From: an uncultured Clostridia bacterium
Lineage (GTDB): Bacteria; Bacillota; Clostridia; UMGS1883
Direction of reading: 5' to 3'
Assembly: GCA_947630975.1 (NCBI GenBank)
Contig: CANRJP010000005.1
Coordinates: 1 to 57,904, forward strand
DNA: 57,904 bases
Positions 21,618-22,855 of the stretch are shown here, in pieces. The notes below the pieces were generated by a model. The model searched no databases. It was not told where the DNA came from and was given only the letters and a program-made list of their open reading frames with translations. Within the stretch, counting starts at the first letter, position 1; every line of letters starts with the position of its first letter. A program made the position numbers and the translations under genes.

Positions 21618-22004
21618 TTAATCGATGAGCTTCATCAGGCTGACAAAAACCTCCTTTATTATGGGGAAGCTCATAAGCGCGATCGCGGTTTTTCCGGCAA
21701 ATTCCACCCGTCCGGCAAGAGCCGTCTCCCCCGCGTCACGGCAGAGCTCGGCGGCGAACTGGGCTATATAGGCGATGCCGGTTATTTTCAGCAGCGGCCC
21801 CAAAAATTCCGCCGCATAAGAATTGAGCAGACCGAAGTTCCGTATGCCCTCCACAAACTCCCCCGCCATGGGCAGCACCGCCAGCATTATTACTATCCCG
21901 GCGCCAAGGGCGACCAACCGTGCCAGCTCGGGCCGGATTTCCCGCAGGAAAAGGGCCGTTACCGCCCCGCAGACCCCCAATGCGCAGATCGCCGCCACGC
22001 TCAC
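21618..22004 (-). CDS. spoIIIAD: Stage III sporulation protein AD
   Basis: This 128-residue polytopic membrane protein belongs to the SpoIIIAC/AD family, with about four helices and the conserved EFLGPLLKITGIAYIAQFAAELCRDAGE at about residues 65-92. It is a subunit of the SpoIIIA channel. The start is a GTG overlapping the spoIIIAC stop codon (GTGA), showing translational coupling. Confidence 0.95.
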   Translation of the reverse strand: MSVAAICALGVCGAVTALFLREIRPELARLVALGAGIVIMLAVLPMAGEFVEGIRNFGLLNSYAAEFLGPLLKITGIAYIAQFAAELCRDAGETALAGRVEFAGKTAIALMSFPIIKEVFVSLMKLID

Positions 22005-22195
22005 AGGCCGAACACCGTCCTCACCGTGGTGAACAGCTCCGCGATCTTGTCCACCAAAAGCAGCAGCACCACCACCAGCCCGGCGATAGTCACCATCATG
22101 GCCTGCTCTTCCCTTCCCGACCGGGAAAGGAGCTGATTTATGACCGCGACGATTATACCCACTCCCGCAATGCGAAAGATGAGATCTATGTCCAT
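22001..22195 (-). CDS. spoIIIAC: Stage III sporulation protein AC
   Basis: SpoIIIAC is a 64-residue, two-helix membrane protein with the family pattern IFRIAGVGIIVAVINQLL and GREEQAMMVTIAGLVVVLLLL. Its ribosome site (AAGGGGTG) lies immediately next to the end of the 176-bp inverted-repeat element at 22208-22383, which separates it from spoIIIAB. The open frame continues upstream through the element, but the ATG at 22195 gives the normal family length. Confidence 0.95.
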   Translation of the reverse strand: MDIDLIFRIAGVGIIVAVINQLLSRSGREEQAMMVTIAGLVVVLLLLVDKIAELFTTVRTVFGL

Positions 22196-22207
22196 CTTAA
22201 CACCCCT

Positions 22208-22383
22208 TAAGTAAACACTGAATAAATACAGTGCGGCGATTGGCGAGACATAATTTTCTCGAGACAAGGAAAAAAGCGCAGAAATAATTTGTTTATTTCG
22301 AGCATTTTTGACGCGGTATCGGGGAAATTTGGCCGTCAAGCGTCGTGCTGAGCCGTAGGCGCTATTTATTCAGTGTTTACTTA
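22208..22383. mobile_element. 176-bp MITE-like element inside the spoIIIA operon
   Basis: Perfect 21-base terminal inverted repeats, from TAAGTAAACACTGAATAAATA at 22208-22228 to its exact inverse at 22363-22383, bracket 134 bases without a credible gene. The element lies in the intergenic space between spoIIIAB (stop at 22391) and spoIIIAC (start at 22195). Here the other spoIIIA genes are spaced by overlaps or by gaps below 100 bases. The ends look like the termini of a transposase-dependent element; no transposase is present in the window, so mobility would need help in trans. Confidence 0.85.
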
Positions 22384-22390
22384 GCACCAC

Positions 22391-22855
22391 TTAACACAGC
22401 ATCACGCAGACCGCCGCGCCGCCGAGCACCCCCAGTCCGAGATACAGCCTGCCCTTCTTTGACAGCTCCTCCCTTGCCGTGCGGACGGCGTCGGTCACGT
22501 TCTCGGAGAAGATGTCGATGTTCCTGAGCTGCCCGTCCAAGGTCTCCGCTCCCAACCCGGCGGCAAAAAGGGTCAGACCCTCGGCGCTGATCTCGCAACG
22601 AGTCAGGGCCCGTTCCGGCGGCTCTCCCCGGCGCAGACCCTCCGCCGCCGGGGAGAAAAGCTCGCTCTGACCGAAGCAGTCCTCAAGGCTCAAACCGCAG
22701 GACGCCATCCTCGCCCGAAGCCGTCCCAGCTCCCAACGGAGCCGCTCCAATTCCCTCACCCGGGCGGCAAGTCTTTTTCTGCCCGCCAGACCAAGGGACG
22801 CCGCGGCGATCATCACCATTGCAGCGCCCACCGTCTTAAGAATAAACGGCGACAT
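22391..22855 (-). CDS. spoIIIAB: Stage III sporulation protein AB
   Basis: SpoIIIAB is a 154-residue protein with a membrane helix at each end and a helical soluble middle; it resembles GspF-like assembly proteins and works with the SpoIIIAA ATPase. The first helix is TVGAAMVMIAAASLGLA; the soluble part has RELERLRWELGRLRARM. The C-terminal helix is YLGLGVLGGAAVCVMLC. It overlaps the end of spoIIIAA by 20 bases. Downstream of its stop the MITE-like element separates it from spoIIIAC. Confidence 0.94.
   Translation of the reverse strand: MSPFILKTVGAAMVMIAAASLGLAGRKRLAARVRELERLRWELGRLRARMASCGLSLEDCFGQSELFSPAAEGLRRGEPPERALTRCEISAEGLTLFAAGLGAETLDGQLRNIDIFSENVTDAVRTAREELSKKGRLYLGLGVLGGAAVCVMLC

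Follow-up and report, generated by a model that had tools for sequence, protein, structure and literature searches.

The window that we analyzed, the whole stretch of 57,904 nucleotides from an uncultured Clostridia bacterium, contains, between the sporulation genes spoIIIAB and spoIIIAC, a genuine and lineage-specific MITE insertion that belongs to a multicopy family and whose interior is an orientation-specific structured module kept by compensatory changes. RNA-forming MITEs and repeats are already known; what appears, from the open-licence literature searched, to be new is that one covarying, strand-specific interior occurs with different ends. An earlier note on this DNA, which described the insertion, missed this main point, namely that the fold is common to other MITE families.

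The spoIIIA operon lies on the minus strand, with spoIIIAB (22391-22855, minus strand; PF09548, E 2.4e-18; stop at 22391) upstream of the insertion and spoIIIAC (22001-22195, minus strand; PF06686, E 6.9e-19; ATG at 22195) downstream of it. Pfam matches support the spoIIIA genes AA, AB, AC, AD, AE, AF, and AH; spoIIIAG had no Pfam match, and its identity was assigned from operon order. The AB-AC spacer (22196-22390, minus strand) measures 195 nt in the window versus 11 nt in the closest relative compared (G007), whose SpoIIIAC is 98% identical. The spacer holds a 170-bp element (22211-22380, family 1) with the ends GTAAAC...GTTTAC, the best-folding (RNA) strand of which is the plus strand, i.e. 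antisense to spoIIIA. Its terminal inverted repeats (TIRs; left, 22211-22228, plus strand; right, the inverted repeat of the left, 22363-22380, minus strand) are perfect and reach 21 bp when three adjoining bases of the target duplication are counted; two TIR matches were observed in the window versus 0.02 expected by chance. The duplication consists of TTAA on the left (22207-22210) and, with one mismatch, TTAG on the right (22381-22384), its 4-bp frame being taken from other copies with exact duplications and from their empty sites, and the corresponding empty site in the closest relative reads CCCCCCTTAAAACAGC. The earlier note had proposed a MITE-like insertion of 176 bp at this place in the operon, with perfect 21-base inverted repeats (22208-22228 and 22363-22383), intact coding frames, and one end against the spoIIIAC ribosome site. 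We confirmed the repeats and the location between Pfam-supported neighbors, the frames on either side are left intact, and the AGGGGTG ribosome site adjoins the element directly (in mRNA sense, the element and then the site); only the extent has to be revised, since the outer 3 bases belong to the 4-bp target duplication and the element proper is 170 bp. We note that the spoIIIAC frame (minus strand, 22001-22339) is open upstream into the MITE as far as a TTG (22339); automated gene calls of SpoIIIAC may therefore include a false 48-residue N-terminal extension.

Several observations establish that the element was inserted. Ten near-full copies of family 1 with 83-100% identity occur in the same genome, and further copies occur in same-genus genomes (G002, G004, G006, and G007). 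The spoIIIA site and three more family-1 loci are empty in the closest relative, the element was absent from all other AB-AC junctions read in relatives, and ancestral presence at the spoIIIA site across the genus was looked for and not found. Thus, the finding that would have refuted an insertion according to the earlier note, i.e. the same sequence at this site in all relatives and nowhere else, was not obtained. The genomes are drafts, one per species, and thus give no view of strain-level polymorphism or of IS copies that may have collapsed. Exact 4-bp duplications were seen at five of the 10 family-1 copies and, as TTAA or TTGA, at copies such as L002, L003, L004, L006, L019, and L043, and we therefore read the TTAA/TTAG pair at spoIIIA as a 4-bp duplication with one change. 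Overall, the target duplications are YTAR-like, with TTAA, TTAG, and CTAA being common and TTGA and TTTA also occurring. A TA duplication was considered first for family 1 and was replaced by 4 bp after the empty-site comparison; a 10-bp duplication, suggested by the similarity of the spoIIIA flanks TTAAGTGGTG and TTAAGGGGTG, was rejected because other loci show 4 bp, and this similarity was read instead as an older spacer duplication.

Several family-1 copies (L006 and L019 flanks) are located within the loop, TTGA, of a palindrome such as CTTCTCC-TTGA-GGAGAAG, which suggests a target preference; the palindromes around these sites are possibly terminator hairpins. The sequence flanking L006 is also repetitive: this repeat of ~150 bp recurs many times in G007 (about 35 places). 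Further, L137, L139, L144, L145, and L146 are palindromic relics of 27-63 bp that retain little beyond the two TIRs and apparently represent internal deletions of family 1.

No transposase ORF lies between the TIRs of the 170-bp element. The models NF033580 (IS5) and PF01609 (DDE_Tnp_1) had no match in the genus, TIR pattern scans of the genome and of viral contigs yielded no transposase-bearing element with matching TIRs, none of the orphan TIRs in the element's own genome led to a transposase element, and phage and plasmid sequences gave no DNA match to the element. The search for an autonomous partner was confined to these two transposase models and TIR patterns in a draft assembly. YTAR targets are linked to IS5; the element, despite its YTAR-like duplication, was not classed as IS5-derived, given that NF033580 was without a match in the genus. 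Among the matches listed, the TIR GTAAACRCTGATTAAAT flanks elements of 159-172 bp with diverged interiors in many Clostridia/Oscillospiraceae metagenome-assembled genomes (MAGs), often with YTAR-type duplications. We conclude that the element fulfils the MITE criteria tested, with the exception of a demonstrated partner transposase.

When elements were oriented by core sequence and not by energy, they folded as a single long imperfect hairpin between the TIRs. In the window, the fold of the whole 176 nt has a z of -6.5. The inner structured domain (helices 2-7; approximately 22229-22350, plus strand) is supported by RNAalifold, pair counts, and the excess of G.U pairs described below, and the apical hairpin GCGCA-GAAATAATTTGTTTATTTC-GAGC (22276-22303, plus strand) is the most conserved part in alignments across families. 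The consensus fold was poor when all members were aligned together by sequence alone, a problem solved by splitting the members into two subgroups; the sequence-only alignments of both revealed the same architecture (59 and 50 pairs), with 29 pairs double-changed in the 59-pair subgroup. RNAalifold returned -57.3 for the core strand versus -26.8 for the opposite strand. A covariance model built from the 59-pair subgroup then found the remaining members. In the 41 distinct members, pairing holds for 92.1% of cells, and 53 of the 59 pairs are changed on both sides, with 384 compensatory cells versus 109 in shuffled and about 80-96 in slid controls. As an alignment made with a covariance model is biased toward its own structure, the diverged subgroup, aligned without the model, served as a safeguard; here, about 20-21 of 50 pairs are double-changed, and 46 compensatory cells compare with 12.6 in the control. 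Internal loops and particular G.U pairs persist (e.g. column 49-129 is UG in 31 of 41 members). The E-values of the model are rough (short calibration), and scores can also arise from other long hairpins; Rfam gave no match at gathering score for the element or its relatives. Because compensatory changes exceed the controls, we conclude that the interior is conserved as a structured module.

The same module is found between other ends. The covariance model detected about 90 elements in the element's own genome, of which 87 were analyzed: 10 belong to family 1, 56 to family 2 (TIR GGCAATACCGCACARAGA; exact 4-bp duplications at 47 copies, mostly TTAA, which accounts for 41), and 21 to family 3 (TIR CTAATCCC; TA duplications at 17 copies). 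The TIRs of the three families are unrelated and their target duplications differ; the interiors are homologous between families and with a 330-bp repeat (z 3.7 to 14.7 relative to shuffles preserving structure and base pairs), and antisense comparisons were near the null. Class-wide, model matches at E <= 1e-6 were obtained in 21 of 148 sampled genomes from about 12 families; some of these matches are to the inner domain only. The orientation of copies relative to neighboring genes showed no preference (20 sense-sense versus 26 antisense-antisense), which does not favor a cis role in host mRNAs and argues against a strong replication-strand bias.

The 330-bp repeat (L013, L011, L014, L015, L025, and L035; e.g. 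L013 at about 1300-1700) contains two oppositely oriented copies of the inner domain together with ends of its own, varying but complementary, that resemble the T-arm of tRNA (GGGGTTCGACTCCCC). Its copies occur in the element's own genus, and related ones occur in G022 and G053. In another rabbit-gut Clostridia MAG, three model matches lie within 3 kb (L269 4954-5124, 6624-6794, and 7576-7746), and a short element neighboring them is bounded by the TIR GGGAATCACCGATTAAAT, which may represent a fourth type of end for this fold.

We note that the fold is specific to one strand. All 18 elements tested fold better on the motif-defined strand, nearly all of them beyond dinucleotide shuffles, as do 86 of the 87 copies in the element's own genome, and the window element scores 192.8 bits against the covariance model on the plus strand versus 41.8 bits on the minus strand. 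The RNA strand in the window is the plus strand; the spoIIIA mRNA bears the complement, which is also stably folded. Random point changes are expected to yield G.U and A.C pairs in equal number. In the inner helices, however, G.U outnumbers A.C by 176 to 27 cells and, among 20 representatives of <80% identity, by 77 to 23 (p = 5.5e-8), whereas in the TIR helix the difference is not significant (25 versus 14; 9 versus 7 in representatives). A reverse-strand match, L010, was included in the alignment (A4) and could only weaken this result. The G.U excess inside, with none that is significant in the TIR helix, indicates that the TIRs behave like DNA sites and the interior like RNA.

Could the fold instead act as DNA, i.e. 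as a single-stranded hairpin formed during replication or transfer and kept for aiding transposition or excision? Mobile ends do accompany the fold in every family; further, DNA likewise accommodates G.T more readily than A.C, and a DNA hairpin formed on one strand could also tolerate G.T. We nevertheless consider this unlikely: duplications of 4 bp or TA next to TIRs indicate a double-strand DDE mechanism, the copies have no preferred orientation with respect to genes (used as a stand-in for replication direction), which is at odds with it, and the G.U excess falls short of significance in precisely the helix where a role as DNA is expected. We give still less credence to the view that this is only an ordinary MITE, with a hairpin that is a by-product of inverted repeats and has little effect on spoIIIA; a similar predicted accessibility of the spoIIIAC ribosome site whether or not the insert is present and the weakness of the terminator-like hairpin are compatible with that view, but what is conserved is a structure located between the TIRs and common to families whose TIRs are unrelated. 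Palindrome correction, i.e. template switching between arms, produces compensatory changes in inverted repeats, and the short palindromic relics show that arms interact; that the covariation arose in this way in selfish repeats without function is nonetheless very improbable, since correction is strand-symmetric and drives arms to perfect complementarity, whereas the elements here retain internal loops and particular G.U pairs, with G.U far above A.C in the interior and no significant excess in the TIRs. The idea that the element is not an insertion but a conserved part of spoIIIA regulation, which the position directly against the spoIIIAC ribosome site might suggest, is refuted by the empty site and the ten dispersed copies, together with the absence of the element from the relatives' junctions read, and can be discarded with near certainty.

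The explanation that we favor, and regard as likely, is a transposase-mobilized MITE that carries a structured RNA module as cargo, with the reservation that the RNA function is inferred and that expression data are lacking. A transposase supplied in trans, the existence of which we infer from the TIRs and the 4-bp duplication, would have moved the element by cut-and-paste transposition into the AB-AC spacer, immediately before the ribosome site of spoIIIAC; the TIRs would serve solely as DNA for the transposase, and the module would act as RNA. Possibly, and we propose this only tentatively, several MITE families of Clostridia, unrelated in their TIRs, have acquired a functional RNA module of ~107 nt or passed it among themselves, and this module acts as RNA to promote the spread of its carriers or their tolerance; it would then be an RNA cargo that otherwise different DNA transposons have in common.

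For the operon itself, the favored explanation predicts that, barring an internal promoter, transcription of the six downstream spoIIIA genes has to pass through the insert and that the spoIIIA mRNA bears a complementary hairpin that is weaker yet stable. The insert may also separate the translation of AB and AC, which would be too far apart for simple translational coupling, and the hairpin could be a target of RNase III-type cleavage, judging by what is known of Correia elements (PMC10969869; PMC2649163). As a putative outcome, so far unmeasured, expression of AC-AH would be lowered or decoupled relative to AA-AB. An effect on mRNA folding or on the AB:AC ratio, which the earlier note had suggested, is plausible but inferred without expression data. 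A scan of the insert in mRNA sense predicted no strong terminator. A terminator role was rejected because the A/U tracts flanking the apical hairpin read A-U in some relatives and U-A in others, and it is also disfavored by the weakness of the internal terminator-like hairpin in the window (-5.7 kcal/mol). A promoter role was likewise rejected: promoter-like matches occur on the plus strand only, and the -10-like bases are peculiar to this copy.

To our knowledge, which is not exhaustive, no covarying module shared by several TIR types is known. In the open-licence literature, the only literature searched and one in which absence is weak evidence, we found no description of these TIRs and no report of a covarying strand-specific module in MITEs with unrelated TIRs. 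The Correia elements (nemis) of Neisseria are likewise MITEs with TIRs, the transcripts of which fold and are cleaved by RNase III (PMC10969869; PMC2649163), but their TIRs and host differ. The pneumococcal BOX and RUP repeats are mosaic interspersed repeats with predicted RNA stem-loops that are sometimes cotranscribed with operons (PMC3049150); BOX is built of sequence modules, whereas the elements described here maintain one fold despite divergent sequences and TIRs. QMITE1 and QMITE2 of Coxiella (about 50 copies each) are a small-RNA source with a stable hairpin (PMC5896051); unlike the elements here, they have direct repeats of 2-3 and 7-11 nt, and the portion of that source available to us describes no cross-family covarying domain. 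In Borrelia plasmid repeats, compensatory base-pair changes were taken as conserved RNA structure (PMC2674063); these repeats are tied to particular plasmid genes and, in the part of the report accessible to us, are not described as MITEs with multiple TIR types. IStrons join an RNA module to a DNA transposon (PMC4227781), namely a group I intron to an insertion sequence, in contrast to the hairpin without a gene that we describe.

MITEs are usually viewed as dead remnants whose ends are the sole working parts. Here, the interior and not the ends shows strand-specific selection on structure, and it recurs between ends of different types, which provides a testable case of small bacterial transposons carrying a shared structured RNA. 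The covariance model can be used for finding more such elements, and the spoIIIA insertion represents a natural experiment on spacing in a channel operon. The presence of the fold in differently ended elements of gut Clostridia suggests that such tiny elements are more than inert debris.
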